Shown: positions 35,035 to 54,272 of the stretch, piece by piece
How the letters are laid out: each line of letters starts with the position of its first letter
Numbering within the stretch: position 1 is the first letter of the stretch
Source: Burkholderiales bacterium 70-64
Lineage (GTDB): Bacteria > Pseudomonadota > Gammaproteobacteria > Burkholderiales > Burkholderiaceae_E
NCBI GenBank assembly: GCA_001898645.1
Contig: MKUQ01000010.1
Location: forward strand, 1-64,000
Direction of reading: 5' to 3'
Length of the DNA: 64,000 bases
Translations under genes and position numbers: made by a program
Notes under the pieces: generated by a model
Told to the model about the DNA's origin: nothing
Databases searched by the model: none
The model's input: only the letters and a program-made list of their open reading frames with translations

Positions 35035-35038
35035 GGGC

Positions 35039-36871
35039 TCAGGACGCCGCATCCGCGAGCCAGCCCGAGGGCACGCGCAGCGGCAGCGCCAGCAGGATCT
35101 GCCCCATCCCCTTGCCCAGCGCATCGTTGCGCAGCGAGGCCATGCCGCCGCCGCCCAGCGCCTGCTCGCACACGAAGTTGAAGGCGTGGATGCCGGGAAC
35201 CTCGTAACGCGTCACCCGGCCCCTGACCAGGTGTGCCAGCCACTGGCCCACCCGCGCCTCGGTGAGCTGTTCGCGCAGCAGCGGCAGCCATTCCGGCCTG
35301 CGCGCGATGACGCCGATGTTGGAGGTGTCCCCCTTGTCGCCCGAACGTGCCCAGGCCAGGCGGATCAGCGGCACCTCGACCATTTCATCCGCCGCGGCTG
35401 TGGGCGGCACGCTGCCTGCCCCGCCGTCCCTGGCTTCATGCGGGCCCGCTGCGCGCGCCGCGCCGGCGACCGCAGGCAGCGGGGCCGGGAGCGCGACCGC
35501 AGCGCCATCGAGGGTGACCACAGGCACGACCCGGGCCTTGTCCAGCAGGAATGCGTACTGACGAATGAGCGGCGAGACGCTGGCGCGCCCGCCTGCGCCG
35601 GTGGTGCCCGGTGCCCACGAGGTGCCCGCGGGGGCCACCTCGCGCGCCAGCAGCTCCAGCGCGGCCTTGTCGGGGTGGCGCGCGCTCAGGCGCAGCACGG
35701 CCTCGCGCATCTGCGCCGCGGCCGGGTGGGCGTGCGGACCGTACGGGCTCTCCGCGCCCAGCACCTCGATATGCGTCGCGCTGAAAGGCGCCAGGCCGCG
35801 CGCCTGCAGCAGCTCGCCCACGCGCTCGAGGATGGCATCGCCGGTGCGCCGGGCCTTCGGCACCGCGTCGAAGCCGACAATGGACAGTTGCGCCGAGGTC
35901 TTGAACCCATCGACGTAGGTGGCGCTCACCTTGTAGCTGCCGGTGGGCGCGCGGCCGCGCGCACCCTGCACGCGCACGCGCTGCTCGCCCACGGCGTCGA
36001 TACGCACCTGGCTGAAGTCGCACACCACGTCGGGCAGCAGGTAGGCGGCCGGATCGTGGATCTCGTAGAGCAATTGCTCGGCCACGGTCTGCGGCGCCAC
36101 CAGGCCGCCCGTACCCCGGGGCTTGGTGACGGTGAAGCTGCCGTCCATCTCGCACTCGACGATCGGGTAGCCGATGTGCGCCCAGTCGGGCACGGCCCGC
36201 CAGTCGGTATGCAGGCCGCCGGTGGCCTGGCAGCCGCATTCGATGATGTGGCCGGCCAGGCTCCCGCCGGCCAGTTGGTCCAGGTCGCTCGCCGTCCAGC
36301 CGAAGTCGTGCATCAGGATGCCCAGCGTCACGGCCGAATCGACGCAGCGGCCGGTGACGACGATCTGCGCGCCTGCGTCCAGCGCGGCCTTGATCGGCAT
36401 CGCGCCCAGGTAGGCATTGGCGGTGACCACCCTGGCCGGCAGCGGCGCGCCGCTTTGCAGCTCGGCCACCGCGGGCTGCTGCTCGCGCAGCGTGGGCAAC
36501 AGCGGCATCACGTCGTCACCCGTGACGGTGGCGATCTTCACCTGCACGCCCAGTTGGCTTGCCAGCGCCCGCAGCGCCTCGGCGCAGCCCTCGGGATTGA
36601 CGCCGCCGGCGTTGCTGACCACGCGGATGCCCTTGGCCACCACGTCCTCGAGCACCGACTTCATGGCCACCGTGACGAAGTCGGTGGCGTAGCCGAGCTC
36701 CGGCTTCTTCAGGCGCGCAGCCGCCAGGATCGACATGGTGAGTTCGGCCAGGTAGTCGAACGCCAGGTAGTCGACCTGGCCGCTGGCCACCAGCTGCGGT
36801 GCGCCCACGCTGGAATCGCCCCAGAAGCCGCTGGCGCCGCCGATGCGGACCACCTTCTGCCTGTCGCTCAT
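35039..36871 (-). CDS. atuA: AtuA-like acyclic terpene utilization protein (DUF1446)
   Basis: Protein of 610 aa of the AtuA family (PF07287), required for citronellol/geraniol breakdown in Pseudomonas; its exact reaction is not established. The N-terminal DUF1446 part begins VVRIGGASGFWGDSS and includes VSNAGGVNPEGCAEAL, VVTGRCVDSAVTLG, IIECGCQATGG and TVAEQLLYEIHDPAAYL. A Pro/Ala-rich linker leads to a separate C-terminal domain of about 110 aa (LAWARSGDKGDTSNIGVIARR). The ATG at 36871 overlaps the stop of a truncated hydratase gene (ATGA). Its codon use resembles the housekeeping genes more than the atuF-B block upstream. Confidence 0.88.
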   Translation of the reverse strand: MSDRQKVVRIGGASGFWGDSSVGAPQLVASGQVDYLAFDYLAELTMSILAAARLKKPELGYATDFVTVAMKSVLEDVVAKGIRVVSNAGGVNPEGCAEALRALASQLGVQVKIATVTGDDVMPLLPTLREQQPAVAELQSGAPLPARVVTANAYLGAMPIKAALDAGAQIVVTGRCVDSAVTLGILMHDFGWTASDLDQLAGGSLAGHIIECGCQATGGLHTDWRAVPDWAHIGYPIVECEMDGSFTVTKPRGTGGLVAPQTVAEQLLYEIHDPAAYLLPDVVCDFSQVRIDAVGEQRVRVQGARGRAPTGSYKVSATYVDGFKTSAQLSIVGFDAVPKARRTGDAILERVGELLQARGLAPFSATHIEVLGAESPYGPHAHPAAAQMREAVLRLSARHPDKAALELLAREVAPAGTSWAPGTTGAGGRASVSPLIRQYAFLLDKARVVPVVTLDGAAVALPAPLPAVAGAARAAGPHEARDGGAGSVPPTAAADEMVEVPLIRLAWARSGDKGDTSNIGVIARRPEWLPLLREQLTEARVGQWLAHLVRGRVTRYEVPGIHAFNFVCEQALGGGGMASLRNDALGKGMGQILLALPLRVPSGWLADAAS

Positions 36872-36975
36872 CGCCCACTCCATTTCGGTGCCCGCTTCTC
36901 GCGAAAGGCGGCCTGCCCCTCGGCCGCGTCCTCGGTCAGGGCAAACAGGCCGATCTGGCTTTCGGTGAAGGCCAT
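36868..36975 (-). pseudogene. C-terminal remnant of an enoyl-CoA hydratase (probable atuE)
   Basis: A 35-codon frame starting at ATG 36975, six bases after the atuF stop, reads MAFTESQIGLFALTEDAAEG and ends EKRAPKWSGR. This is the classic C-terminus of crotonase-family hydratases (EDAxEGxxAFxEKRxPxW). The rest of the roughly 260-aa protein is missing: the in-frame codon just before is the atuF stop. Its stop overlaps the atuA start as ATGA, so it was once translationally coupled to atuA. The missing enzyme is expected to be isohexenylglutaconyl-CoA hydratase (AtuE), by position in the cluster. Confidence 0.8.
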
Positions 36976-36981
36976 CGTCGA

Positions 36982-39078
36982 TCATGCAGCCTCCGGTTCG
37001 ATGCGTACGAGAAGTGTGGCCGGCGAGACCTGTGCACCGACCGAGACGGCAATCGCCGCGACCCGTCCGCCGGTGGGTGCATCGATCCGGTGCTCCATCT
37101 TCATCGCCTCGATCGACAGCAGCGCCTGGCCGGCGCGGACGCGTTCGCCTTCGGCCACGGCGAGCGATGCGATGCGGCCGTGCATCCGTGCGCGCAGCTC
37201 GCCGCCGGCGTCGGCGCTCGCGCGGCGCACCGGCAGTGATGCGGCGTCGACGACGCCCGCTGCAAAGCCGCAATGGTCGAGCCACATCCGCAACGGACGG
37301 GCAGGCGTGCCTTCGAAGGCGACGTGGACCGGCAGCCGGTGACCGTCGATGCGCATCGATTCGGCCGATTCGATCTGCAGCGTGCTTTCGTGCGCCCCGA
37401 TGCGTACCGTGAGCGCATCGTCGTGCGCAGCTTCGACCTCGGCGTTCCAGCGCATCGGCTCTTCGACCGGGGACTTCGCCAGGCGGTGGGTGCCTTCGCC
37501 GCGTTCGCTGCCCTCGCTTCCCTCGGTATCGCCTTGGGCGCGAGCATGCGCCTCACCGACGTCGACGCCGACCACGGCGAGCGACACCCGCGAGCGGCGC
37601 GCGCCGTTCGATGACCAGTTCGCGAGCGGCCCGTGGCGGCGCATCACCGCTTGCACCCACAGTGCGCTCGCCACCGCCTGCCATCGGGAATCGGGCGCGG
37701 GCGCGCGCCAGCACGAGGCTGCGTCCTCGAGCCAGCCCACATCGAGATCGCCGGCGACGAAACGCGGTGCGCGCAAGCATTCGAGCAGCAGGGCGCGGTT
37801 CGTGGTCGGGCCGAGGATCGAACTGTGCGCGAGCGCCGAAACCAGGCGCAGCCGCGCGTCTTCGCGATTGCCGCCGCGCGCGACGAACTTGGCGATCAGC
37901 GAGTCGAAGTGCGGCGAGACGTACGTACCCGCGCCGAGCGCGTGGTCGACGAGTACTGCGTCGTCGTGCGCGACCCGCCAGCCGTGGATGGCGCCGCTGC
38001 GCGGCACGAAACCTGCGAAGGCGTCTTCGGCGCACAGCCGCGCCTCGATCGCGTGCCCGTCGAAGCGAAGGTCGGCCTGCGCGAAGGGCAGCGGCTCGCC
38101 GCGCGCGATGCGCAGCTGCATCTCGACGAGATCGACTCCGGTGACCGCCTCGGTGACTCGATGCTCGACCTGCAGCCGCGTGTTCACCTCGAGGAACCGG
38201 AAGTCGCCGTCGGGATCGAGCAGGAATTCGACGGTTCCCGCTCCGACGTAGCCGGCTGCCTGCGCGAGGCGTACGGCCGCTTCGCCCATCGCCGCGCGCG
38301 TCTGCGCGGAAACGCCCGGCGCGGGCGCTTCCTCGATGATCTTCTGGTGGCGGCGTTGCGTCGAGCAGTCGCGCTCGCCGAGGTGCACGCAGTGTCCGAA
38401 GCGATCGGCGAGGATCTGGATCTCTACGTGGCGCGCTCCGTCGACGCATCTCTCGAGCAGCAGCCGGCCGTCGCCGAAGGCGGATTGCGCCTCCTTCGCC
38501 GCCGCTTCGCGCAGCCACTCGAAATCGGCCAGAGAATCCACCCGGCGCATGCCGCGCCCGCCGCCGCCCGCAGCAGCCTTGATCATCAGCGGCACGCCGA
38601 TGCGTTCGGCCTCGGCCGCCATCGCCGCCGGCGACGGGTCGTCGCCGGCGTATCCGGGGAGGCAGGGCACACCGGCGCGCTGCGCGATCGCCTTCGCCTG
38701 CGCCTTGTCGCCGAGCGCCTCGATCGCCTCGGCGGACGGCCCGACGAAGACGATGCCCGCCGCTGCGCAGGCGCGCGCGAACGCCGGGTTCTCCGAGAGG
38801 AAGCCGTAACCGGGATGAACGGCGCCGGCGCCGCTGCGCCGGCATGCATCGATCACCGCCTCGATCGAGAGGTAGGCGGCGAGATCGGAATCGGCGCGCA
38901 GCTCGAGCGCCTCGTCGGCAGCGGCGACGTGCGGCGCATCGCGCTCGCCCGATGCGTGCACGGCGATCGTGCGCAGGCCCAGTGCGCGTGCGCTGCGCAG
39001 CACGCGATGCGCGATCTCGCCGCGGTTCGCGACGAGCAGCGCGTCGAACGCGGGCGGCGGGGACGCGAAGCGTTTCAT
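36982..39078 (-). CDS. atuF: Acyl-CoA carboxylase alpha subunit (geranyl-CoA carboxylase AtuF-like)
   Basis: Biotin-dependent subunit (698 aa). The N-terminal biotin carboxylase domain starts ALLVANRGEIAHRVLR and includes VHPGYGFLSENPAFA, the ATP-grasp loop KAAAGGGGRGMR, ERDCSTQRRHQKIIEEAPAP and FLEVNTRLQVEHRVTE. A middle domain of about 200 aa leads to the biotinyl domain with Lys660 in EAMKMEH. With the beta subunit at 40257 it would carboxylate geranyl-CoA in terpene degradation; methylcrotonyl-CoA is the alternative substrate. atuA and atuD as neighbours favour geranyl-CoA. Its ATG overlaps the stop of the dehydrogenase gene (ATGA). Confidence 0.88.
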   Translation of the reverse strand: MKRFASPPPAFDALLVANRGEIAHRVLRSARALGLRTIAVHASGERDAPHVAAADEALELRADSDLAAYLSIEAVIDACRRSGAGAVHPGYGFLSENPAFARACAAAGIVFVGPSAEAIEALGDKAQAKAIAQRAGVPCLPGYAGDDPSPAAMAAEAERIGVPLMIKAAAGGGGRGMRRVDSLADFEWLREAAAKEAQSAFGDGRLLLERCVDGARHVEIQILADRFGHCVHLGERDCSTQRRHQKIIEEAPAPGVSAQTRAAMGEAAVRLAQAAGYVGAGTVEFLLDPDGDFRFLEVNTRLQVEHRVTEAVTGVDLVEMQLRIARGEPLPFAQADLRFDGHAIEARLCAEDAFAGFVPRSGAIHGWRVAHDDAVLVDHALGAGTYVSPHFDSLIAKFVARGGNREDARLRLVSALAHSSILGPTTNRALLLECLRAPRFVAGDLDVGWLEDAASCWRAPAPDSRWQAVASALWVQAVMRRHGPLANWSSNGARRSRVSLAVVGVDVGEAHARAQGDTEGSEGSERGEGTHRLAKSPVEEPMRWNAEVEAAHDDALTVRIGAHESTLQIESAESMRIDGHRLPVHVAFEGTPARPLRMWLDHCGFAAGVVDAASLPVRRASADAGGELRARMHGRIASLAVAEGERVRAGQALLSIEAMKMEHRIDAPTGGRVAAIAVSVGAQVSPATLLVRIEPEAA

Positions 39079-40223
39079 GGGCGCGGCAGGATGCCCATCG
39101 TCTTGGCAATGATGCCGAGCATCACCTCGTCGGCGCCTCCGCCGATCGAGACGAGTCGGGAATCGCGCCAGTAGCGGTTCACGCGCGTGTCCGCGATGTA
39201 GCCCATCCCGCCACAGAACTGCACGCACCAGTCGGCGACCTCGCGCGAGACTCGTCCGGCCTTCAGCTTGGCCATCGACGCGAGTTGCGTGACGTCGGCG
39301 CCGCCGACGTACAGTTCGACCGCGCGGTACAGCAGCGCGCGCAGGCATTCGATCTCGGTGTTCAGCTCGGCGAGCTTGAAGTGGATGAACTGGTTGGCGA
39401 GCAGCGGCTGGCCGAAGGCGCGGCGCTCGCGCAGGTAGCCGATCGTCTCGGCGAGGATCGTGCCTGCCCCCAGCGAGTTTGCCACCCCCCAGAGCCGTTC
39501 CTCCTGGAACTGCATCATCTGGTAGGCGAATCCCATGCCTTCCTCGCCGATCCGGTAGCGCTGCGGCACGCGCACGTCGTCGAAGAAGATCTGCGCGGTG
39601 TCCGAGGAATGCATGCCGGCCTTGTTCAGCTTGCGCGCGACTTGGACGCCGGGCGTATCCATCGGAAGGCAGATCAGCGCCTTGTTCCGGTGCGCCGCGC
39701 CGTCGGAGGTGTTCGCCAGCAGGCACATCCAGTCGGCCTGCGTGCCGCTGGTCGTCCACATCTTGCCGCCGCGGATGCGGTAGTCGCCGCCGTCCTTGTG
39801 CGCGAAGGTGCGGATCGAGGCGACGTCGGAGCCGGCCCCGACCTCGGACACGCCGAGGCAGGCGACGCGCTCGCCGGCGATCGACGGCGCGAGGAACTCG
39901 CGCTTGAGTTCGTCGCTGCCGAAGCGCGCGAGAGCCGGTGTGGCCATGTCGGTCTGCACGCCGATCGCCATCGGCACGCCGCCGCAGTGCGCGTGCCCGA
40001 GCGCCTCGGAAACGGCCACCGAATACGAATAGTCGAGGCCCGAGCCGCCGTATTCGACCGGCTTGGTGACGCCGAGGAAGCCGAGCCGCCCCATCTTGCG
40101 GAACAGCTCGTGTGCGGGAAAGATGCCGGCACGCTCCCATTCCTCGACGTGCGGATTGATTTCGGCGTCGACGAAGCGGCGCACGGAGTTCTTCAGTTTT
40201 TCGTGTTCCTCGGTGTAGATCAT
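39075..40223 (-). CDS. atuD: Acyl-CoA dehydrogenase, citronellyl-CoA dehydrogenase (AtuD)-like
   Basis: FAD-dependent acyl-CoA dehydrogenase of 382 aa. Its start MIYTEEHEKLKNSVRRFV and the segments DAEINPHVEEWE and GGVPMAIGVQTDMATPALAR follow the pattern I know from AtuD, which oxidises citronellyl-CoA to geranyl-CoA. FAD-binding marks are ACLGVSEVGAGSD and MWTTSGTQADW, with the C-terminal CVQFCGGMGYIADTRVNRYWRD. It lies between the carboxylase beta (34 bp upstream) and alpha (4-bp overlap) genes, in line with the pathway order dehydrogenation then carboxylation. Confidence 0.88.
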   Translation of the reverse strand: MIYTEEHEKLKNSVRRFVDAEINPHVEEWERAGIFPAHELFRKMGRLGFLGVTKPVEYGGSGLDYSYSVAVSEALGHAHCGGVPMAIGVQTDMATPALARFGSDELKREFLAPSIAGERVACLGVSEVGAGSDVASIRTFAHKDGGDYRIRGGKMWTTSGTQADWMCLLANTSDGAAHRNKALICLPMDTPGVQVARKLNKAGMHSSDTAQIFFDDVRVPQRYRIGEEGMGFAYQMMQFQEERLWGVANSLGAGTILAETIGYLRERRAFGQPLLANQFIHFKLAELNTEIECLRALLYRAVELYVGGADVTQLASMAKLKAGRVSREVADWCVQFCGGMGYIADTRVNRYWRDSRLVSIGGGADEVMLGIIAKTMGILPRP

Positions 40224-40256
40224 CCTTCTCTCCGTTCGCTTCCGCGTTGATCGATC

Positions 40257-41900
40257 CTAGGGGCGGGCGACGCCGAAGCTCGACGGACGCAGCGCGCGCG
40301 TCTGCGCGCCTGCGCAGGTGTCGAGCAGGAAGCCCAGCAGCTTGCGGGTATCGCGCGGATCGACGATGCCGTCGTCGAGCAGCCGCGCGCTGGTGTGCAG
40401 CACGCCGGCCTGCGCTTCGAAGTGCTCCACGATGCGCGCGGACAATGCGTCGAGCTTCGCCTCGTCGACCGGCTCGCCGCGCCGGCGTGCGGTGGATTCG
40501 CTGACGATGCGCATCGTCAGCGCGGCCTGCTCCCCGCCCATGACGGCGGTTCGCGTGTTCGGCCACGAGAAGACGAAGCGCGGACCGAAGGAGCGTCCGC
40601 ACATTCCATAGTTGCCGGCGCCGAAGGAGGCGCCACAATGCAGCGTGATCGACGGAACCGTGGCGTTCGAGACCGCCTGGATCATCTTCGAGCCGTGCTT
40701 GATCATCCCCGTCTGTTCGCTCGCGCGTCCGACGATGTAGCCCGTGGTGTTCTGCAGGTAGAGCAGCGCCGTTGCGCTCTGGCAGCAGGCCTGGATGAAG
40801 TGCGTAGCCTTGTTGGCGCCGGCCGGATCGATCGGCCCGTTGTTGGTGACGATGCCGACGCGGTGGCCGTGCAGTTCGGCGTGGCCGCACACCGTCTGCG
40901 GTCCGTAATCGGGCTGGAACTCGAGGAAGCGCGAGCCGTCGACGATGCGTGCGATCACCTCGCGCATGTCGAAGGGCTCGCGGAAATCGAGTGGAACGAC
41001 GCCGGCGAGCTCCTCGGGCGCGTGCAGCGGCTCTTCGAAACACGCGGAGGCCGCAGCGGTATCGCTTCGGGCGTGCGGCGGTGCGTCGTCGTCGAAGCCG
41101 AGCCGGCCGACCACCTCGCGCGCGATGCGCACCGCGTCGGCGTCGTCGTCGGCGAGATAGTCGGCCAGCCCCGAGATCGTCGCGTGCATCTCGGCGCCGC
41201 CGAGTTCCTCGTCGGTAGCGATCTCGCCGGTGGCTGCCTGCAGCAGCGGCGGGCCGGCGAGGAAGGCCTTCGCGCGTCCGCGCACCATGACGACGTAGTC
41301 GGACAGGCCCGGCAGGTAGGCGCCGCCCGCGGTGGACGAGCCGTGCACGATCGCCACCACCGGAATGCCGGCGGCCGAGAGCCGCGCCAGGTGGTGGAAC
41401 AGGCGTCCGCCGTGCACGAAATCCTCGACGCGATAGCGCAGCAGGTTCGCGCCCGCCGATTCGATCGACTGCACCAGCGGCAGGCGGTTCTCGAAGGCGA
41501 TCTGCTGCGCACGCAGGATCTTCTCGCCGCCCATGCTCGGGATCGCGCCCGCGTCGATGCCGGAGTCGTTGACGACGACGACGCAGCGCGTGCATGCGAC
41601 GAAACCGATGCCGCACACGACGCCCGCGCCTGGAATGCTGCGCTGCGGGTCGGCGGCGTCGAGACGGTAACCCGCCATCGTCGAGAGCTCGAGCCACGGG
41701 CTGCCCGCGTCGAGCAGCCGTGCGAGCCGCTCGCGCGGCAGCAGCTGGCCGCGTCGCTCGAAAAGCGGCGCCGCGCGCGCCGAGGCATCCCGCGTGCGCT
41801 GCTCGAGCGCGCGCAGCTCGGCGATGCGCTCGATCATCGCGGCTCGACGCGCCGCGAATTCCGCGCTGCCGGTGTCGATTCCCGTGTCGAGAGGGAGCAT
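40257..41900 (-). CDS. atuC: Acyl-CoA carboxylase beta subunit (geranyl-CoA carboxylase AtuC-like)
   Basis: Carboxyltransferase subunit of 547 aa with the duplicated crotonase fold. The N-terminal half has RERLARLLDAGSPWLEL, VVNDSGIDAGAIPSMGGEKI and GSSTAGGAYLPGLSDY. The C-terminal half has GIVTNNGPIDPAGANKATHF, LLYLQNTTGYIVG, SFGAGNYGMCGRSFGPRFVF and MGGEQAALTM. Sequence alone does not separate geranyl- from methylcrotonyl-CoA carboxylase with certainty; the atu neighbours decide. The start at 41900 is preceded by a weak ribosome site. The SDR gene ends 17 bp upstream. Confidence 0.88.
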   Translation of the reverse strand: MLPLDTGIDTGSAEFAARRAAMIERIAELRALEQRTRDASARAAPLFERRGQLLPRERLARLLDAGSPWLELSTMAGYRLDAADPQRSIPGAGVVCGIGFVACTRCVVVVNDSGIDAGAIPSMGGEKILRAQQIAFENRLPLVQSIESAGANLLRYRVEDFVHGGRLFHHLARLSAAGIPVVAIVHGSSTAGGAYLPGLSDYVVMVRGRAKAFLAGPPLLQAATGEIATDEELGGAEMHATISGLADYLADDDADAVRIAREVVGRLGFDDDAPPHARSDTAAASACFEEPLHAPEELAGVVPLDFREPFDMREVIARIVDGSRFLEFQPDYGPQTVCGHAELHGHRVGIVTNNGPIDPAGANKATHFIQACCQSATALLYLQNTTGYIVGRASEQTGMIKHGSKMIQAVSNATVPSITLHCGASFGAGNYGMCGRSFGPRFVFSWPNTRTAVMGGEQAALTMRIVSESTARRRGEPVDEAKLDALSARIVEHFEAQAGVLHTSARLLDDGIVDPRDTRKLLGFLLDTCAGAQTRALRPSSFGVARP

Positions 41901-41917
41901 TCGTGCGGCGGCGTTCT

Positions 41918-42805
41918 TCAGGATTCGTCGAGCACGCGCGGACGGCTCGCGAGCGGGAAGGCGTCGAACGGACGCGTTGCATCGCTGTCGTGCTCCATCG
42001 GCTGCGCGGGCCAGGTGTGGCGCGCGTTGGGCACGCCGCCGTCGACCCGGATGCAGCTTCCGGTGATGAACGCCGCAGCGGGCGACAGCAGGAAGACGAT
42101 CGCCGCCGATACCTCGGCTTCGGTTCCGAAGCGCCGCAGCGGCACGACGCGATGCAAGCGGCGCATCTGCGCGATGGTCTCGGGCGGGTAGCGGTCGAGC
42201 CCGCTCGAGGCGATCCATCCGGGTGCGACGGCGTTCACGCGAACGCCGCTGCGCGCCCATTCGGCGGCGAGCGACTCGGTGAGGTTCAGCATGCCGGCGC
42301 GCGCGGCGCCGGAGTGCACCATGCCCGGCATGCCGTTCCACATGTCGGCGATGACGTTGACGATGGCGCCGCCGTGCGCGTGCAGGAATTGCCGGTACGC
42401 CTCGCGCGCGACGAGGAAGCCCCCGCTCAGGTTGGTTCGCACGACCGCTTCCCAGCCGTTGAGCGAGAGGCTTTCGGCCGCCGCCGTGAACTGCCCGCCG
42501 GCATTGTTCACGACGGCGTCGAGCCTTCCGTGCGCGCGCAGCACCTCGCCGACCACGCGCTGGACCGCTTCTTCGTCGCGGATGTCGAGCGGGTGCTGGG
42601 TGACCTGCGTGTCCTTGTCGTGAAGCTCGGCGGCAACCGTCTCGAGCCGGTCGGCTTTGCGGCCGGCGAGCGCGACCGCGGCGCCGAGCGCCGTCAGCTC
42701 GTGCGCGGTGCAGCGGCCGATTCCCGACCCGCCTCCGGTGACGAGCACGACGCGCCCCGCGAACAGGCCGGGACGGAACACGCTGCGATAGTCGGTAAGA
42801 GGCAT
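41918..42805 (-). CDS. atuB: Short-chain dehydrogenase/reductase, AtuB-like
   Basis: NAD(P)-dependent SDR of 295 aa. The cofactor motif is VLVTGGGSGIGR (TGxxxGxG), followed by VVNNAGG and a C-terminal TGSCIRVDGG. The catalytic Tyr position of classical SDRs (YxxxK) is not evident. The matching region reads GMVHSGAARAGMLNL, as in the trans-2-enoyl-CoA reductase-like branch, so it may not be a typical alcohol dehydrogenase. It is the first gene of the minus-strand atu operon and is divergent from the TetR gene. The ATG 42805 (MPLTDYR) fits the family start better than longer alternatives. Confidence 0.82.
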   Translation of the reverse strand: MPLTDYRSVFRPGLFAGRVVLVTGGGSGIGRCTAHELTALGAAVALAGRKADRLETVAAELHDKDTQVTQHPLDIRDEEAVQRVVGEVLRAHGRLDAVVNNAGGQFTAAAESLSLNGWEAVVRTNLSGGFLVAREAYRQFLHAHGGAIVNVIADMWNGMPGMVHSGAARAGMLNLTESLAAEWARSGVRVNAVAPGWIASSGLDRYPPETIAQMRRLHRVVPLRRFGTEAEVSAAIVFLLSPAAAFITGSCIRVDGGVPNARHTWPAQPMEHDSDATRPFDAFPLASRPRVLDES

Positions 42806-42821
42806 AGCGAGTGCGTAATAA

Positions 42822-42834
42822 TGAGCAACACTCA
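42822..42834. promoter_or_regulatory. Candidate TetR operator in the atu divergent promoter
   Basis: TGAGCAACACTCA is an inverted repeat (TGAG-N5-CTCA), extended by imperfectly matching A/T flanks, 17 bp upstream of the SDR start and about 150 bp before the TetR gene. The 177-bp divergent region is otherwise unremarkable, with an AT-rich stretch just beyond the repeat. Binding by the adjacent TetR protein is an inference from position. Confidence 0.45.
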
Positions 42835-42982
42835 ATAAAATGCCCGGTGCTTCCTGCCCCGTCAAGCCGCAGTGCAGCATGCGCACCGTGCGCAGCGAGG
42901 CAACAACAGGGAGGCGGCTGCGTCGATGACCGAGATCCCACGACCTGCTCTATACTGAGTCGCGCCCACGATCTCCCGAACG

Positions 42983-43651
42983 ATGTCCGCAACATTGCCC
43001 CGCAGGAGAAAACCGGTTCGCCGCGACGAGATCCTCGCCGCCGCTCGCGAGGTCTTCCTCGAGCGTTCCTTCGAGAACGCCTCGGTGGCCGAGATCGCCG
43101 CACGCGCCGGGTGCGTGGAGGGAACGATCTACACCTATTTCCGCAGCAAGCGCGAGCTGCTCGATTCGCTGTTCGTGACGTTCTACGATCGGCTGATCGA
43201 GGACATAGAGGCCGGCTTCGCCGCCATCGTCGACACGCGGGCGCGGCTGCACTACCTGATCGCCCGTCACCTGCAGATCGCGATCGACGATCCCGCCTTC
43301 ACGCGGCTGATCGTCAGCGAGTCGCGCGGCCACCAGCCGTACTTCGGCTCCCAGCTGCACGCGCTGAACCAGCGCTACGGCCAGTTCCTGATCCGCACGC
43401 TGCGCGACGGCATCCAGCGCGGCGAGCTGCGTGGCGACCTCGAGGTGGCGCTCGCGCGCGACCTCGTCTTCGGCGGGATCGAGCACCATGTGTGGAACCG
43501 GCTTGCGCGCCGGCGGCAGCTCGTTGCCACGCACACGGCGACGGCGATCGTCGAGCTGCTCTGGAGCGGCTGGGCGGCGCAAGGCGCCGACGACCTGCGC
43601 GGCCTCGCGCAGCGCGTGCAACGGCTCGAGCGTCGCATCGATCCGCGCTGA
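42983..43651 (+). CDS. TetR-family repressor (AtuR-like)
   Basis: DNA-binding regulator of 222 aa. The N-terminal TetR helix-turn-helix reads AAREVFLERSFENASVAEIA followed by GTIYTYFRSKRELLDSLF. The C-terminal half is an all-helical ligand domain of the type found in acyl-CoA-responsive regulators. It is divergent from the atu operon, matching atuR in Pseudomonas, where the repressor is released by intermediates of the pathway. It is the last gene before the sharp drop in G+C at about 43,660. Confidence 0.85.
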   Translation: MSATLPRRRKPVRRDEILAAAREVFLERSFENASVAEIAARAGCVEGTIYTYFRSKRELLDSLFVTFYDRLIEDIEAGFAAIVDTRARLHYLIARHLQIAIDDPAFTRLIVSESRGHQPYFGSQLHALNQRYGQFLIRTLRDGIQRGELRGDLEVALARDLVFGGIEHHVWNRLARRRQLVATHTATAIVELLWSGWAAQGADDLRGLAQRVQRLERRIDPR

Positions 43652-43777
43652 TACTGTGTCAAGTCAACAAGGTTCTATGCGCTCCCACCGCCTTTGGAAA
43701 GACAGTCACGGGAGCATCTGCTGAAAGCGGGAACAGGGAAGACCCATCAGTCGAACCGCTCCATAATAGGAAAGCCA

Positions 43778-44788
43778 TTATTTCAGTCGTTCACCGGAAA
43801 CGATCACACTCTTGGCCTGCCGCCCCACTCTATCAGCCACACGCTCCAGAATCCCCATGACCCCGCGAGGCATGAAGATCATTACCAAAATTATCAAAGT
43901 GCCGTAGATCACCATACGGTACTCCGTAGCCACACGCAGGTATTCCGGAAGAAAAACCACCAGCGCCGATCCAATGACCGGCCCCCAGACAGTCCCTGCC
44001 CCACCGATAATGACCGCCAATATAGCGTTCAACGATACGCCCAGATGAAATGGGGTCGGATTCACAAAGTTGATATAGTGAACATAAAATGCCCCGGCGA
44101 GGCTCCCCAAAATCGCGCTGATGCCAAATGCCAGCCGCTTGCTTCTTGTCGTATCGATCCCGATAGCCGCCGCCACCGCCTCGTTCTCGCGCACCGCAAT
44201 TATCGCTCGCCCCACCCGGGAGCGAACGAGTCGCCCGACAAATACCACACTCAGGACCGCCGCAATCAGTACCAAGTAGTAATAACCTTGCGGACTTCCA
44301 AGCTCGAATCCCCACAGTTCCAACTCCGGACGCGGAATGCCTTGCAGTCCTGCATCTCCACCTGTAACCACCTTCCAATTAAGCATCACCGAACTGACCA
44401 ACACCGCAAAAGCCATCGTAGCGATGGCAAAATAGTGTCCCTTCATTTTCAGTGATGGCCACCCGATCAACAAGCCTGAGAGGAGGCCGGCCAGCGCCGC
44501 GGCCGCAAATCCCGTGCCAACCGGCCAACCGAGCTTGCTAGTCACGAGCGCTGATGCATAAGCCCCAATACCGAAAAACGTGGCCTGACAAATCGAAACA
44601 TAGCCGGCATACCCTTGGATCACATTGAGCCCCTGCGTCAATATGATCCATATCAACATTATCGTTACAAGGTGCAAATAATACACCTTCTCTACAAACA
44701 TGGGGAGCGTCATCAAAATCGGCAACAAGACTATCCATATTGCCAAATCAGACCTGCCGTGCCGAGAACTTGATCGTAACAGGCTCAT
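43778..44788 (-). CDS. LivM-type ABC transporter permease
   Basis: Inner-membrane permease of the branched-chain amino acid (HAAT) importer family, 336 aa with about eight to ten hydrophobic helices. Diagnostic segments are LNVIQGYAGYVSICQATFFG, the EAA-like loop VRSRVGRAIIAVRENEAVAA and GGAGTVWGPVIGSALVVFLPE. Its ATG directly follows the livH stop (TAAATG). It is the last gene of the probable seven-gene operon starting at 51644. Base composition is clearly more AT-rich than the atu block. Confidence 0.92.
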   Translation of the reverse strand: MSLLRSSSRHGRSDLAIWIVLLPILMTLPMFVEKVYYLHLVTIMLIWIILTQGLNVIQGYAGYVSICQATFFGIGAYASALVTSKLGWPVGTGFAAAALAGLLSGLLIGWPSLKMKGHYFAIATMAFAVLVSSVMLNWKVVTGGDAGLQGIPRPELELWGFELGSPQGYYYLVLIAAVLSVVFVGRLVRSRVGRAIIAVRENEAVAAAIGIDTTRSKRLAFGISAILGSLAGAFYVHYINFVNPTPFHLGVSLNAILAVIIGGAGTVWGPVIGSALVVFLPEYLRVATEYRMVIYGTLIILVMIFMPRGVMGILERVADRVGRQAKSVIVSGERLK

Positions 44789-45655
44789 TTAGACATCCTT
44801 ACCAAACATGCCTGACGGCCTGAACCATAGCACCAAGATCAATATAATGAACCCAAAGCTGCCCTTGTATGCCGACGAAATAAGCGCACCGCCCAAGCTC
44901 TCCGTCAAGCCGATGATCATGCCGCCCAACACAGCCCCGACAAGACTACCCATGCCGCCCAAAATCATGACGGCAAAACCTTTGAGCACCAGTTCTTCGC
45001 CCATAGAAGGATATAGAGCAGTCAAGGATCCTACAAAGGCGCCCGCCACAGCCGCCAATGCCGATCCTATCGCAAAAACCGCTCCGGAAACCCAATCTAC
45101 ATTTACCCCTACCATGGCGGCCGCATCACGATTCTGAGCCACGGCGCGAATCGCGCGACCAAGCTTCGTGCGTTGAAGCAGGACGACAAGCGCAATCAGA
45201 AGAACCAGGTTGCTTCCGAGCATATAGATTCGTAATGCAACAACGTTGACCGACCCAACGCTGACAACATCGGTATACGGCGACCGTATAAGAGTTTGCT
45301 CCGGTCCAAAAACCAGCAACGCGATGTTATCCAAAATAAACATCAAGCCAAGCGCAATAATAAATGTGTTTATTGGCGGCGCCTCGCGTACCGGGCGATA
45401 GAATAGCCTCTCGAGCAATACGCCCACAATCGCAGTTATCGGCATGGCAAACAGCATGGCAACCCAGAGGTTGATGCCAAGATGTTTCATGAGAATAAGT
45501 GTCGCGTAACCCCCGAGCATCGCGACCGACCCATGGGCGAAATGCGCGATACCCAGAATTCCGAACACCAGGGATAGACCCAATCCAATCAATACGTAGA
45601 CACTACCAGCAGCCAGGCCGTTGACTATCTGCTGCAAGAGTTCCGGACCGCCCAT
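44789..45655 (-). CDS. LivH-type ABC transporter permease
   Basis: Second permease (288 aa) of the Liv-type importer. It shows NGLAAGSVYVLIGLGLSLVF at the N-terminus, AHFAHGSVAMLGGYATLIL, the cytosolic loop TKLGRAIRAVAQNRDAAAMV and ILGGMGSLVGAVLGGMIIGL. It lies 63 bp downstream of the binding-protein gene and abuts livM. Confidence 0.93.
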   Translation of the reverse strand: MGGPELLQQIVNGLAAGSVYVLIGLGLSLVFGILGIAHFAHGSVAMLGGYATLILMKHLGINLWVAMLFAMPITAIVGVLLERLFYRPVREAPPINTFIIALGLMFILDNIALLVFGPEQTLIRSPYTDVVSVGSVNVVALRIYMLGSNLVLLIALVVLLQRTKLGRAIRAVAQNRDAAAMVGVNVDWVSGAVFAIGSALAAVAGAFVGSLTALYPSMGEELVLKGFAVMILGGMGSLVGAVLGGMIIGLTESLGGALISSAYKGSFGFIILILVLWFRPSGMFGKDV

Positions 45656-45718
45656 CGTAACCAGCCCCCTTCATTGATGGAGCCCTACTGACGTAGAGCC
45701 CCAGCCCCACACAGCGCG

Positions 45719-46996
45719 TTACTTCTTCTTCACCTGCTGCGACAGGAACTTCGAAAATCCTTCCGGATCACCCGGGAGAAACTCTCGAAAGACCCAGTTA
45801 CCGTCTTTCCAGTCGAATGACCCGATCGGCGCAAAGCCCTGCCCGTTCGAGTCAAAGAGCTTGCCGTTCAAGAGAGAATAGGGTAACAGCGCCTGCTCGG
45901 GAATTCCGATTTCGCGAATCGCGTCGGCCACCTTCCTCCAATCTGTCGTACCGGCTCGTTTCAAACCTTCCATAAGCACCCAGAACATGTCGTAAGAGTT
46001 GGCGGTGGTCGCATCCGGCGCATGTTTGAAGCGCTTTTCGAAATCAGCCGCGAACTGCTTGCCTTTTGGTCCGAGAATGTTGGGATCGAAAGCCACCAGA
46101 TAGATTTCGGTGCCATTCTTCATCTGCTCGGGGGTAGCCACCTTCAGAAACTGCGCTGCAGTGCCAGCTGAAACGCTGTACACCTTCCCCTTGTAGCCCA
46201 ACTCGTTGGCCTGGCGATACACAAACGCCACTTGTTCGACATTGCCGATGGCAAACAATGCGTCAAAAGTCTGCCCCTTGATCTTGGTCAGCTGCGTATA
46301 CATGTCACGATCGGCGCTTTGAAAGGTCTCCTCGGCAACGATCTTTCCACCTAACGCTGTGTACGCTTCCTTGAGGAGCAGATATTCGTCGGAAAAACCG
46401 GCGTTGGTAAGATCACCAATGACCGCGATACTCTTCGCCCCTTGCTTATATAACCATTTTCCCAAAGGCGCTCCAACATAAGAGTTCGGAGCGCGCGCTC
46501 GGAACACGTTCTTTGCACCCTGGGTAGTGATCGCCTGTCCGGCTGCATTGCCGACCAGCAAAATACCCTTCTCACGCCCGAAGGACTGGGCTACAGGCAT
46601 TGTCGCCGGGGTGCTGGCGAATCCGAGTATAAAGTTGACATCGTCCAGATCCAGCAACTTCCGTACTGCGGAAACAGACTCCGTAGCGTCGCTTCTATTA
46701 TCGTAATGAGTCAGCTTCAGCGTGTATCGCGTGTCGCCGACGAGTACGCCGCCCGCAGCGTTCACTTGCTCCACCGCGAGCGTCACGGCTTCGAACTGAG
46801 GAAGCCCGTAAACTGCACCCGTACCGGTGAGCGCATCTACAAATCCAATGTTGAGTTTTCCCGTTTTCGCCGCAACACCTGTTCCGCTCGAACCTGCTGC
46901 GTGCGCGACACCAAAGGTGCCATATCCGAGCGCCATAGCAGAAGTCATCAGTCCAGCTATGGCCATGCGAAACATCCGAAGACCGTTCCTTTTCAT
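45719..46996 (-). CDS. Periplasmic ligand-binding protein of a Liv-type ABC importer
   Basis: Solute-binding protein (425 aa) of the Leu/Ile/Val-binding family (Peripla_BP_6). It has a signal peptide (about residues 1-33, ending GVAHA-AGSS). The mature protein opens LNIGFVDALTGTGAVYGLPQ and contains LILGFASTPATM-like and VIGDLTNAGFSDEY segments typical of the two-lobed fold. GGGAGG stands six bases before the ATG. The binding site residues do not let me name the ligand; amide, urea, aromatic or amino acid substrates are all known for this family. The gene lies between livF and livH. Confidence 0.92.
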   Translation of the reverse strand: MKRNGLRMFRMAIAGLMTSAMALGYGTFGVAHAAGSSGTGVAAKTGKLNIGFVDALTGTGAVYGLPQFEAVTLAVEQVNAAGGVLVGDTRYTLKLTHYDNRSDATESVSAVRKLLDLDDVNFILGFASTPATMPVAQSFGREKGILLVGNAAGQAITTQGAKNVFRARAPNSYVGAPLGKWLYKQGAKSIAVIGDLTNAGFSDEYLLLKEAYTALGGKIVAEETFQSADRDMYTQLTKIKGQTFDALFAIGNVEQVAFVYRQANELGYKGKVYSVSAGTAAQFLKVATPEQMKNGTEIYLVAFDPNILGPKGKQFAADFEKRFKHAPDATTANSYDMFWVLMEGLKRAGTTDWRKVADAIREIGIPEQALLPYSLLNGKLFDSNGQGFAPIGSFDWKDGNWVFREFLPGDPEGFSKFLSQQVKKK

Positions 46997-47019
46997 GAAA
47001 TGCCTCCCGTCAGATTGAA

Positions 47020-47724
47020 TTAAACACCTAAATATGCGTTCTTTATATAGCTACTCGCCATCAATTCCGGGCTGGAAGCCTGCATTACCAACTCTCCTGT
47101 TTCGAGAATGTACGCATAATGCGCAAGATCCAACGCCATCTGCACGTTTTGCTCAACTAAGAGTATGGTCGTCCCCCTTTTTCTAATATCCTGGATCGCC
47201 TGGGCCACCTCTTCCAGGATGATCGGGGCCAAACCCCACGAGGGTTCGTCCAGTAGCAGCAGTTTGGGGCGTGCCATGAGCGCCCTGGCGATCGCCAACA
47301 TTTCCTGCTCGCCACCTGATAACGTCCCGGCCAGTTGCGTTCGCCGCTCGAACAGGCGCGGAAAACGTTGAAACATTTCCTCGATATCGGCCTGAATCAG
47401 CGCTGAATCGGAGCGCAGATACGCTCCCATAAGCAGATTTTCGTTGACGGACATCTGTGGAAATACCTGCCGGCCTTCGGGACACATTGCCAGCCCCAGT
47501 CTGGCAACTTCATGCGGTCGTTTTCCACTCAGGCTCGCAGGACCGAAGGTAGCCCTTCCGCCGGCACTCGGCACAAGGCCCATCAAGGCTTTCAGGACCG
47601 TCGTCTTTCCGGCACCGTTACCACCGAGAATCGCCGTGATCTCACCCTCCTCGGCACGAAACGAAATTCCATGAACCACTTCAAGATTGCCATAAGAAAC
47701 GCGTAGGTTCTCTACCTCAAGCAT
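47020..47724 (-). CDS. LivF-type ABC transporter ATP-binding protein
   Basis: ATPase of 234 aa. Walker A is GGNGAGKTT, the family segment GLAMCPEGRQVFPQMSVNEN follows, the signature is LSGGEQEMLAIARAL and Walker B is LLLLDEPSWGLAP. The ATG 47724 (MLEVENLRVSYGN) overlaps the end of livG by eight bases, so the two ATPases are coupled. Residues readable upstream of this start belong to the livG region. Confidence 0.95.
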   Translation of the reverse strand: MLEVENLRVSYGNLEVVHGISFRAEEGEITAILGGNGAGKTTVLKALMGLVPSAGGRATFGPASLSGKRPHEVARLGLAMCPEGRQVFPQMSVNENLLMGAYLRSDSALIQADIEEMFQRFPRLFERRTQLAGTLSGGEQEMLAIARALMARPKLLLLDEPSWGLAPIILEEVAQAIQDIRKRGTTILLVEQNVQMALDLAHYAYILETGELVMQASSPELMASSYIKNAYLGV

Positions 47725-48487
47725 GAACCGCGCTCCTTCCGAGGTAGGCTTGAATAACCGATTCAGTAGATTGGATCTCGGCCGGGGTACCCTCAGCAAT
47801 CTTCTCTCCTCCCGAGAGCACGACCACTTTGTCACAGATCCCCATGATCAGGCGCATATGGTGCTCGACGAGTACGATAGTTATGCCGATATCCCTTACC
47901 TTGAAGATCAGATCGGTAAGGTTGACCTGCTCGTCCCTGGTCATGCCCGCACCCGGTTCATCGAGCAACAACAACTTTGGCTTTGTAGCCAAGGCCATGG
48001 CTATCATCAGCCTTCGTTGCTCCGCACTCGACAGCGCATCTGCGCGAATTCGACTCCGCCTTTCCAATCCCACGAATTGAAGAAGTTCATGACTATGCTC
48101 GACTGCGGCAACTTCCTCTTCAATTGTCTTCCTCGATCGGAAGACACCGGAAACCAGGCCGGAATCCAATTGGATATGATGCGACGTCAAAACATTATCC
48201 AATCCGGTCAGCGCAGGGAAATAGCTGCTTGTCTGAAACGTCCTGGCGACACCCTCAGCCGCAATCCGATGCTGAGGGAGTCCGCTAATCAAGTCACCAT
48301 TGAAATAGATATTTCCGCTGGTAGGGACGTAGAGGCCGGAAACAAGATTGAAGCACGTCGTCTTGCCTGAACCGTTCGGACCAATCAGCCCGACGATCTG
48401 CCCCACTTCCACGTCGAAGGAGACACCCCTTACCGCCGCAAGCCCGCCAAAAAAACGGGTCACGCCTTCTAGCCGAAGTAACGCCAT
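47717..48487 (-). CDS. LivG-type ABC transporter ATP-binding protein
   Basis: ATPase of 256 aa. Walker A is GPNGSGKTTCFN, followed by GVARTFQTSSYFPALTGLDN, Walker B LLLLDEPGAGM and switch His in LVEHHMR. The ABC signature is degenerate, LSSAEQRRLMIAMAL, where LivG proteins usually have LSYGEQRR. The start ATG 48487 (MALLRLEGVTRFFGG) has AGGGAA upstream and is preferred to the longer frame from 48523. It is the first transport gene after the FAD oxidoreductases, behind a large hairpin. Confidence 0.93.
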   Translation of the reverse strand: MALLRLEGVTRFFGGLAAVRGVSFDVEVGQIVGLIGPNGSGKTTCFNLVSGLYVPTSGNIYFNGDLISGLPQHRIAAEGVARTFQTSSYFPALTGLDNVLTSHHIQLDSGLVSGVFRSRKTIEEEVAAVEHSHELLQFVGLERRSRIRADALSSAEQRRLMIAMALATKPKLLLLDEPGAGMTRDEQVNLTDLIFKVRDIGITIVLVEHHMRLIMGICDKVVVLSGGEKIAEGTPAEIQSTESVIQAYLGRSAVHA

Positions 48488-48595
48488 ATCGTTCCCTGAG
48501 GCTTCGCTTTCCTGGCTCGCCAACCTCCCCCGAAGGCCAGGGGCGTTTCTTTTGATCTCTATAACCGATACGAGAGCTCTTCTGCAGCCGAGGAT

Positions 48596-48648
48596 CTGTT
48601 CACTCTACGATCGGCCCCGCGCCGGGATGTCGATCGTAGAGCGAACAG
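48596..48648. repeat. Long hairpin between the FAD-oxidoreductase and livG genes
   Basis: Arms of 18 bp at 48596-48613 (CTGTTCACTCTACGATCG) and 48631-48648 are inverted copies with a single mismatch. The 17-bp loop contains a further CCCG/CGGG stem. In the minus-strand mRNA it lies between the FAD1 stop and livG. No T run follows, so it is not a standard terminator. mRNA processing, stability or partial attenuation are possible roles. Confidence 0.75.
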
Positions 48649-48660
48649 GCCCTGGAGGCG

Positions 48661-50088
48661 CTAGATTCGCAAAGGCTTTGCCTCTTCAGCTCGCCGCTCG
48701 TAGTCCTTGATCACCGCATCGGGCAATGTCCGCACGGTGGTTCTTTGCCCTGCGGAAATCAAAGCTGCTTGAATCATCTTCACGTCGAGCCGCTTTGGAG
48801 ATACGTTCTGCCTTACGGCTAACGCGGCAGCCGTGCCCGCTGCCTGTCCGGTGCAGACGCTTGGAGTGTTGTATCGTACCGCCGCCCAGGTAACCAGGTC
48901 CATGGATACGGACGAGCCGGCTGCCAACAAATTGTCGACTTCGGCAGAAATAAGGCAGCGGAAAGGAATGTCATAGGGCGTAACGTCGTACGCAAATTTG
49001 TGCCCGCCATTCGGATAAAAGATGTCTGGCGGCATGTTGCACACCGCTATTGCGTCATCGAATGACTTGACGTGGCGAATGTCGTGCTCCGTCAGAATGT
49101 ATTCACCTAAAATCCGATGACCATCACGCATGAGCGGCTGTTGCGGCGTCTGCTCGATGACTGCGTCTTCGAATCCGGGCACTTCGGCTTTGAACAGATT
49201 GTGCAGTTCGCGCGCCTGCCTTCGAAGATCAATCTCACCGGCTGTCATCGCTTCAACTTCCCAGGGATGCTGCCCCTCCTGCAATGAGTAGCTCGGATTC
49301 AAAATCCAGGCACGCCCCCCGATCCGCTCTCGTATGAGGGCGCTATTCCGCAAGAGACGGACTCGGCCGTCAGCCTTTGCTTGGGTAATCAGGTCACGGC
49401 CGGCCGAAAACTCGCCCCACTCGGCTTGATGCTTCGCTGCGTACGCGCGGAATCGATCTATATCGATTCCAGATGCGTAGTAGGCGTAGCCGTAGCCCAT
49501 ATGTTGACCTTTGCACTCACCGTCAGCGAACCCTTCCTCACCAATAACCGGTGCGCCAGACTTCCAGGCGATCTCCCCAAGGCCGCTGCAATCAATAACG
49601 ACTTTTGCAGTGACCGCAAACCGGCCTTGACGACTCTCGACCACAACACCGCGAATCGAATTACCCTCACGGATTGTAGCCACCGCGAATGAGTGAAAAA
49701 GGACCTTGACTGCAGCCTCCTTCATCATGTTGTCCAGTAAGTACTTGTAGTACTCACCATCGAAGAAGTGGACTCCTTGCTCGGGCCCCCAGCCAGATCG
49801 GTTTACCTTTTCAGGGCAGTCCAGGACGATGCCACCGCCCTTTCCCAATCTTTCGATAATCTCTTGTATGATTCCGCCCTGAATTCGGGGATCCACGAAG
49901 GCAAATAGATTCGAGAACGTAAGTGTCTGGTTACCGCCCAGGCAACCGAACCGCTCGAGTAGTATCGTCTTCGCTCCGTGGCGTGCCGAGGCCAATGCAG
50001 CGCCAATTCCGGCTGGCCCCCCTCCAACAACGAGCACATCCGCCTCATAAAGCACAGGCGTATCGAATTGCTCGCGTATCGTAGACAC
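48661..50088 (-). CDS. FAD-dependent oxidoreductase (PF12831 type), copy 1
   Basis: Flavoprotein of 475 aa, probably cytosolic. The N-terminal Rossmann motif is ADVLVVGGGPAGIGAALASA, then ERFGCLGGNQTLTFSN and later VVIDCSGLGEIAWKSGAPV. The C-terminal FAD contact region is LLAAGSSVSMDL with CTGQAAGTAAALA. The same architecture and many identical blocks occur in the next gene upstream (50205-51644), so the two are tandem paralogues. Start choice: GGAGGTGA stands seven bases before GTG 50088, so the GTG is preferred over ATG 50109, which precedes that site. The reaction is unknown; the ABC importer downstream may supply the substrate. Confidence 0.88.
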   Translation of the reverse strand: MSTIREQFDTPVLYEADVLVVGGGPAGIGAALASARHGAKTILLERFGCLGGNQTLTFSNLFAFVDPRIQGGIIQEIIERLGKGGGIVLDCPEKVNRSGWGPEQGVHFFDGEYYKYLLDNMMKEAAVKVLFHSFAVATIREGNSIRGVVVESRQGRFAVTAKVVIDCSGLGEIAWKSGAPVIGEEGFADGECKGQHMGYGYAYYASGIDIDRFRAYAAKHQAEWGEFSAGRDLITQAKADGRVRLLRNSALIRERIGGRAWILNPSYSLQEGQHPWEVEAMTAGEIDLRRQARELHNLFKAEVPGFEDAVIEQTPQQPLMRDGHRILGEYILTEHDIRHVKSFDDAIAVCNMPPDIFYPNGGHKFAYDVTPYDIPFRCLISAEVDNLLAAGSSVSMDLVTWAAVRYNTPSVCTGQAAGTAAALAVRQNVSPKRLDVKMIQAALISAGQRTTVRTLPDAVIKDYERRAEEAKPLRI

Positions 50089-50204
50089 AGGCTCACCTCC
50101 CATATTCATTGAACGATGCTTCTATCGAATATTTCGTCGACGAGTCACCCGAGGCTCCAAACTTGTACACCGGTTTGAGAGCGCGTCGGCGCTTTGAAAA
50201 ATCC

Positions 50205-51644: not shown

Positions 51645-52050
51645 TTCACATCTCCCGTCAATAATCGATTTCGAATAAGGAATAGGAAGCGCAGCGGCAG
51701 AGGAATCTTCTTCTCATCGCGCGATATCATCAATGATTGGAATCGATGGTGATCGTGCTGAAAAACGGCCGACGCGACCATGAAGAGCTGGCACTTCGCG
51801 ATCCGACCAAGCGAGCGGCTCACGCTCAACCTGGACAACCCACAGGGTGCGATCATGCGCGGCTTCGGATTCACGACATCCCGAATCCGCCTGAAGGGAG
51901 CGGAAAGCCCATGAAAGAGCGGAATTCGCCCGATTCACGGCGCTCGATTGCCGGAATATCCGGTCGGCGGATGAAGAAATCGACGACATCGAGTTGACTC
52001 AGCGATTCGGCAGATCAACGCGTGTTGACCAGACCATCTGCAGGCCACAA

Positions 52051-52074
52051 GGATGCCCAGCACAACAGGCATCC
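52051..52074. repeat. Hairpin GGATGCC-N10-GGCATCC
   Basis: Perfect 7-bp arms at 52051-52057 and 52068-52074 with a 10-nt loop, inside the region upstream of FAD copy 2. Read on the plus strand, a T6 run follows about 10 bp later; read on the minus strand, it would lie early in the operon leader. Confidence 0.5.
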
Positions 52075-52112
52075 ACGATCAAATTTTTTCGTATTGAAGT
52101 GTAGCACGTCTA

Positions 52113-52134
52113 TTTGATTTCGCATAGCATCAAA
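52113..52134. promoter_or_regulatory. Inverted repeat TTTGAT-N10-ATCAAA (candidate operator)
   Basis: Perfect 6-bp arms flank a 10-bp centre in the most AT-rich part of the intergenic region, about 470 bp upstream of FAD copy 2. Position and symmetry suggest a regulator site for the FAD-Liv operon. No regulator gene is present within that operon. Confidence 0.4.
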
Positions 52135-52316
52135 ACGAGAGCATATATCTTCTCAAAAAGTTCATTTGGATTCGCTTGGCTTATCGTTGTCCGCCTCTGA
52201 ACGAGGGTTTTCCCTAGCCATGACCGGCAGACTCCGGCATCGGTCCATGTGCAATGCGCGAGCAGCCTGGCCGCGCAGACCTGATATCGGTCGATGGTTC
52301 GATCGGGGGCGATCAT

Positions 52317-52342
52317 CGAGCGGTCTGACGACGCTCCGCTCG
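52317..52342 (-). terminator. Possible glpD terminator hairpin
   Basis: CGAGCGG and CCGCTCG are perfect 7-bp arms with a 12-nt loop, about 30 bp past the glpD stop. No T run follows on the minus strand, so if it terminates, it may need Rho or act as an mRNA end stabiliser. Confidence 0.4.
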
Positions 52343-52372
52343 ACAGGCCGCCTTGTGCGACTGGGGCGTGTT

Positions 52373-54040: not shown

Positions 54041-54132
54041 GGTCTGCGCCTGCGCGCCCTTGTCTTGAAAACGGCCCGGCTTCGAACCGAATCGCCTTCA
54101 AAATGATTGGGTTGCGAAATGACACGAATTCT

Positions 54133-54166
54133 ATATAGTTCGTATTGCGATAAGATCGAACTATAT
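54133..54166. promoter_or_regulatory. Inverted-repeat operator between glpD and glpR (candidate GlpR site)
   Basis: Perfect 10-bp arms ATATAGTTCG (54133-54142) and CGAACTATAT (54157-54166) with a 14-bp spacer, in the 232-bp divergent region. Further TTCGA/TCGAA half-sites occur just downstream (54167-54210). DeoR-family GlpR proteins bind TTCG-containing, AT-rich palindromes, so this is the likely site controlling both transcripts. Confidence 0.65.
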
Positions 54167-54272
54167 CGAACCTGAAGAAGGTCTGCAAAACTCGTTCGAA
54201 ACTGGTCGAATGGATGCGATGATTCGGTTACCGATTTGACAACGAGCAAGAGCCAGCCTCTGACAACCATTG

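Follow-up and report, generated by a model that had tools for sequence, protein, structure and literature searches.

The DNA analysed here, which we call the window, is a 64,000-nt stretch of contig MKUQ01000010.1 from Burkholderiales bacterium 70-64. Its minus strand carries atuB, atuC, atuD, atuF, a short stub and atuA, in that order (Table 1). The cluster shares with the acyclic terpene utilization genes of Pseudomonas (atuABCDEFGH) an AtuA family protein, an SDR, the carboxylase subunits and an acyl-CoA dehydrogenase. Its beta subunit, AtuC, is closest to 5ikl and scores 630.8 bits as a geranyl-type and 463.7 bits as a methylcrotonyl-type subunit, and the alpha subunit, AtuF, has its best match to methylcrotonyl-CoA carboxylase. 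The cluster differs from that of Pseudomonas in its order (B-C-D-F-A), in having no hydratase that passes the AtuE cut-off, in lying within an insertion, and in the deletion of its 3' part. Betaproteobacterial atu genes in an order unlike that of Pseudomonas have been described in Thauera linaloolentis (PMC4847356; see also PMC4097962). Unlike the window, T. linaloolentis has atuCFE adjacent and atuA separate, and the passages of that paper that were consulted mention no remnant.

Table 1. Features of the atu region, in window coordinates
Feature	Position	Strand	Description
Insertion	35035..60090		about 25 kb, carrying the atu cluster, between yicC and gmk
648-codon open frame	35039..36985	-	begins at the ACAD2 ATG, crosses the stub in another frame and continues into AtuA, adding 38 residues at the N-terminus
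atuA	35039..36871	-	PF07287 (487.9 bits) and PF23544; 610 aa; 96% amino acid identity to G003
Stub	36868..36975	-	C-terminal 35 codons and stop of a crotonase-family hydratase, equivalent to codons 228-262 in the G003 gene
ACAD2, first 4 codons (MIDD)	36974..36985	-	ATG overlaps the atuF stop (ATGA)
Joint	36974..36977		4-bp microhomology CGAT, common to both parent sequences
atuF	36982..39078	-	biotin carboxylase with biotin-carrier domain; geranyl-CoA carboxylase alpha-like
atuD	39075..40223	-	acyl-CoA dehydrogenase, citronellyl-CoA dehydrogenase-like
atuC	40257..41900	-	carboxyl transferase; closest among solved sequences to geranyl-CoA carboxylase beta (5ikl); start inferred from open frame
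atuB	41918..42805	-	SDR dehydrogenase; start inferred from open frame
TetR-type regulator	42983..43651	+	named by eye; similarity to G003 contig C72 stops exactly at its end

The stub translates as MAFTESQIGLFALTEDAAEGQAAFREKRAPKWSGR and ends in a TGA that overlaps the atuA ATG. A sequence-only reading had described it as the last 35 codons of a hydratase from which some 220 upstream codons were absent, and a relative of the same genus, G003, bears this out. In G003, a complete 262-codon crotonase gene lies directly before atuA, with matching flank, and its C-terminus is identical to the stub in all 35 residues and all 108 nucleotides; 227 upstream codons are missing from the window. Among solved crotonases, too, the stub peptide finds matching C-terminal ends (51 distinct sequences at E<=10, the best of them at 9.3e-4). 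Since the full hydratase of G003 ends in the same residues and nucleotides, the stub is, on this comparison, a genuine gene tail, with chance excluded. Crotonase catalytic residues lie well before the last 35 residues, so the stub, without most of the enzyme, cannot be a hydratase.

In the window, matches to two contigs of G003 meet at the upstream end of the stub. Window positions 35046-36977 match contig C48 at 97.05%, with the right match ending at 36977, and positions 36974-43651 (atuF, atuD, atuC, atuB and the TetR gene) match contig C72 at 95.98%, with the left match ending at 36974. Beyond the matched part, the 19,999 bases of C48 that were compared gave one 78% stretch of 99 bp and were otherwise unmatched, and the 269-base end piece had no match. 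On C72, ATGATCGACGATCGACTC begins an intact 392-codon gene with Pfam acyl-CoA dehydrogenase domains, here called ACAD2. Both parent sequences, the joint and its microhomology are thus seen directly: four ACAD2 codons are fused to 35 hydratase codons, and the recombination joint that had been proposed to cut the hydratase is real. Microhomology of at least 4 bp occurs at 3.0% of random position pairs in C72 and C48, or 0.8% when weighted per distinct junction, and the overlap at the joint is weak evidence for any mechanism. A deletion within one gene, with the ATG that overlaps the atuF stop as the native hydratase start, was ruled out, as this start is that of ACAD2 in C72.

The sequence-only reading had further proposed that one atu-type block replaced another, with host-like codon use in the stub and atuA but not in atuF and beyond. 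Neither part of this proposal held. Both sides of the joint are about equally close to the same relative and stand in operon orientation, so no second lineage is needed, and the left side runs into ACAD2 rather than into another hydratase. Scored against seven host genes of the window, codon use shows no split between the sides (atuA 0.52, atuD 0.50, atuC 0.49, atuB 0.39, atuF 0.34), and the stub scores 0.13, within the lowest 1.3% of 530 host 35-codon stretches. Core DNA is only 80-90% identical to G003 (84% and 90% for gmk-spoT; five stretches at 80-87% for window positions 21862-34900, with three paralogue-like matches at 67-72% set aside). Because the atu halves are 96-97% identical, the atu material was probably shared more recently than the core, by horizontal transfer. 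The dN/dS ratios between the window and G003 (atuA 0.35, atuF 0.30, atuD 0.34, atuC 0.15, atuB 0.29, tetR 0.12) indicate constraint on average; one pair of sequences cannot show whether constraint outlasts the deletion. In a scan of named genomes, the best 80 of 578 confirmed AtuF places were 35-54% identical in their best segment, so there is no close relative among the matches listed. A plasmid search returned 881 matching records, none covering 80% of the query.

We think it probable that the stub is the scar of a single deletion of about 9.9 kb in a G003-like operon. The ancestral order would have been the TetR gene, divided from atuB-atuC-atuD-atuF-ACAD2-(regulator)-livK-livH-livM-livG-livF-acyl-CoA synthetase-hydratase-atuA. 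The deletion would have run from codons 4-5 of ACAD2 to codons 227-228 of the hydratase, removing ACAD2, the liv transporter genes, the acyl-CoA synthetase and most of the hydratase (6679 + 725 + 2464 = ~9.9 kb), and the break would have been sealed at the 4-bp word CGAT. After atuF, C72 carries ACAD2, a frame with an integrase arm and a TetR regulator, livK (PF13458), livH, livM and livG, and then ends within livF. The first bases of C48 lie about 725 bp beyond this point, in an acyl-CoA synthetase gene (PF00501); in sister operons the synthetase follows livF. The last 55 bases of C72 are identical to the end of another contig, C133, which holds a second liv operon, and this shared word is a sign of an assembly fork. 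Similarity profiles point to C72 as the contig that leads into C48. The C48 synthetase is closest in DNA identity to G017 (87.1%) and G011 (88.9%), compared to 81.5-83.0% for G000:C4, G005, G008, G013, G014 and G004, and the C72 liv genes share this profile (87.0 and 86.9% to G017 and G011, 82.6-83.5% to the other six). The liv genes of C133 show the reverse (83.0 and 82.6% to G017 and G011, 85.1-87.3% to the other six), and C133 carries the UbiA-paaG flank of G000:C4. If C72 leads into C48, the window is accounted for by one deletion of about this size; the contiguity of the two contigs and the single event are inferred, with good support, from similarity and not from a spanning sequence, G003 being a draft (83% complete, 6% contamination, 480 contigs). 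None of the genomes searched carried atuF and the hydratase-atuA pair on one contig.

An alternative is that two separate G003-like donor loci, one with atuBCDF-ACAD2 and one with synthetase-hydratase-atuA, were stitched together while a mosaic insertion of about 25 kb formed, with no single deletion. The G003 parts do lie on different contigs, across the assembly fork; the insertion is patchy (GC 0.51-0.58 in its liv part and 0.66-0.74 in its atu part), and its left edge likewise cuts at the very end of atuA. However, stitching requires two captures that ended in operon orientation with similar divergence from the same relative, and the similarity profiles make C72 and C48 neighbours, and we consider it unlikely. 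An assembly or read chimera is very unlikely. The window's own assembly is a draft of 63 contigs, but the joint lies inside a 234,682-bp contig, and related genomes have deletions at the same place. In addition, the sequence common to the parents is only 4 bp long at the joint, and up to 300 nt from the breakpoints they have no common word of more than 10 bp, which gives a k-mer assembler little ground for a false join. It is highly improbable that the stub was retained as a working short frame, such as a leader peptide or a translation coupler for atuA: it has its own ATG, 6 nt past the atuF stop, an ATGA overlap with atuA and 108 nt unchanged from G003, but the overlap is inherited from the full G003 gene, zero changes in 108 nt are expected a few per cent of the time at 3% divergence, a stronger start signal (GGAGG) precedes the ACAD2 ATG, which reads another frame, and a search of 30 loci with the stub gave no other clear matches than full genes, in G003 and G055.

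Ordinary bacterial gene remnants can arise by deletions between short repeats. The single-deletion reading gives the window the same marks, namely a truncated tail, microhomology and an intact copy in a relative, and it shows no essential difference from such remnants, the in-frame restart into atuA being incidental or putative. The stub is likely a real and fairly ordinary gene remnant, left by a deletion sealed at a 4-bp microhomology, and a precise rearrangement in this way accounts for a short "stub gene" within a catabolic operon. The beginnings of the abstracts found for deletions involving atuF, atuA and an acyl-CoA dehydrogenase contained nothing relevant to this question.

The stub's parent gene had been named atuE, a name that the parent in G003 does not support. 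It belongs to the crotonase superfamily by a full-length match to solved crotonases (best 5jbw, E 2.4e-39), but it scores 139.9 bits against the AtuE model NF004227, for which the cut-off is 426. Its match to 4zu2, the AtuE of P. aeruginosa, has an E value of 3.7e-29 and ranks behind 37 other distinct solved sequences. On these scores the parent, although a crotonase, cannot be shown to be an AtuE (isohexenylglutaconyl-CoA hydratase). A divergent atu hydratase has precedent in T. linaloolentis, where the hydratase assigned as AtuE has a value of only 30 in the paper's column of amino-acid similarity (PMC4847356). The AtuE cut-off was passed in none of 101 genomes, the window's own included (22 first-look candidates scored in the larger genomes), and none of 14 control genomes passed, leaving the scan with no positive control.

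A search of the rest of the genome for a full AtuE- or LiuC-type hydratase had been suggested as a check. No match to the parent at E<=1e-60 was found in the window's own genome (26 of 41 first-look candidates scored), and 10 of 101 genomes had one, with G003 and G010 the only members of the genus among them. The missing 5' part of the hydratase was sought elsewhere in the genome; short words aside, the best candidate was 67% identical in DNA over about 360 nt, and none reached E<=1e-60. The genome's best match to the AtuE model is C25:126850-127641 (266.6 bits). Its neighbour, at C25:125806-126811, is a carboxylase match with about 70% identity to atuF DNA; this arrangement suggests LiuC beside LiuD. 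In total the genome has 36 ECH_1 matches, 35 of them over the cut-off. No further copy of ACAD2 was found in it at the threshold used.

The operons of the genus show what commonly stands beside the atu genes. They run atuBCDF-(ACAD2, intact or broken)-paaG-type hydratase-livHMGF-synthetase; the atuBCDF block and the order up to atuF are as in the window, but the hydratase is PaaG-like rather than the stub's parent (the G017 copy scores 313.8 bits against a PaaG cut-off of 345). The pathway reading is corrected accordingly in that the genus operons examined have a PaaG-like hydratase or none beside the atu genes, and no Pseudomonas-type AtuE. Adjacency of atuF and atuA with no hydratase between them was also seen in G010:C83 and G042, and in G022 if an unaligned atuF end is allowed.

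The deletion in the window is one of several losses of ACAD2 in the genus, and this recurrence is the more interesting part of the result. The atuBCDF block was followed past atuF in 11 of the 18 genus genomes searched, the window's own included. The others were G012 (block at about 71% DNA identity; 14 kb read without an atuF match), G010 (C83 is arranged differently, and C170 ends within atuD) and G001, G002, G006, G007 and G016 (only short, roughly 70% matches to the atuF part). ACAD2 is broken or missing in six of the 11 loci (the window, G017, G011, G014, G004 and G013) and intact in five (G003, G009, G005, G008 and G015), with G009, whose contig stops at codon 390 of 392, scored intact. 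At all 11 loci tblastn recovered atuB, atuC, atuD and atuF essentially at full length, with atuC of G004 in two pieces. The deletions, whose ends vary with the reference used, span about 981 nt in frame in G017, about 316 nt in G011, 965 nt in G014, about 1162 nt in G004 and about 1.2 kb in G013. G011 and G017 lack different parts of ACAD2 and therefore represent separate events; the nested deletions of G014, G004 and G013 could be one growing deletion. Counted in this way, ACAD2 would have been lost in at least four independent events, including that in the window. On a tree of atuC, atuD and atuF, the ACAD2 label requires at least three changes, and 72 and 50 of 500 shuffles were as low; the losses are not clearly clustered or scattered.

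In the wider family, where many of the genomes surveyed are drafts, ACAD2 follows atuF in G052, G031, G030, G036, G026 and G053 (the last cut by a contig end), and no match to it was found between atuF and the paaG-type gene in G019, G049, G023 and G024. In G021 neither ACAD2 nor a paaG-type gene follows atuF, G034 has no atuF, and in G042 ACAD2 comes after atuA. That ACAD2 is lost repeatedly and independently while its upstream neighbours stay intact suggests that, in a terpene operon conserved in other respects, this step is dispensable or costly.

The surviving ACAD2 start may still be used. Its ATG (36985) has GGAGG four bases upstream, is coupled to the stop codon of atuF and shares the frame of atuA, and the own start of AtuA retains an upstream GGAG. 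Judging by these signals, a form of AtuA lengthened by 38 residues may be made beside the one that begins at its own start. By chance, a frame coincidence like that joining the ACAD2 start to atuA would arise about one time in three. In G004, too, the retained ACAD2 start is in frame into the next gene, extending the paaG-type hydratase. One speculation, which we regard as doubtful, is that ACAD2 is repeatedly discarded under selection and that surviving deletions tend to spare the coupled start, leaving the next gene translated, the product here being a new 648-residue AtuA.

The site of the insertion can be compared among relatives. In G005, G002 and G001 the tblastn matches to yicC and gmk lie next to each other, 22, 91 and 787 bp apart; the stretch of G010 that was read had no yicC within about 3.7 kb of gmk, and G010 gives no support for an empty site. 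The atuBCDF block lies beside a UbiA-family gene in nine of ten relatives' loci, the exception being G003. The window's own genome has a UbiA-flanked site on contig C4, with a paaG-type hydratase and liv genes and no atu genes.

Several further features of the neighbourhood were observed. At window positions 35035-35046, atuA ends two codons past the similarity to G003, in which the frame continues for about 25 residues; the atuA stop codon may derive from the insertion edge. Positions 43700-51700, a foreign-looking segment of the insertion, hold liv genes and two FAD_oxidored (PF12831) genes; their GC content is about 51-58%, in a region of about 70%. Also between yicC and gmk, positions 52373-59764 contain glpD-, glpR- and glpK-like genes, of which glpD and glpK have intermediate codon use, together with a gene resembling rubrerythrin and one for a flavoprotein that bears a dihydropyrimidine-dehydrogenase domain, both with host-like codon use; all are named by eye, with fitting Pfam domains. 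On G003:C72 (L235), positions 10877-11875 before livK form one frame with an N-terminal integrase arm domain and a C-terminal TetR regulator, which is another recombination fusion. Finally, window positions 5468-21861, about 16.4 kb, correspond to about 145 bp in G005, a second insertion near the first.
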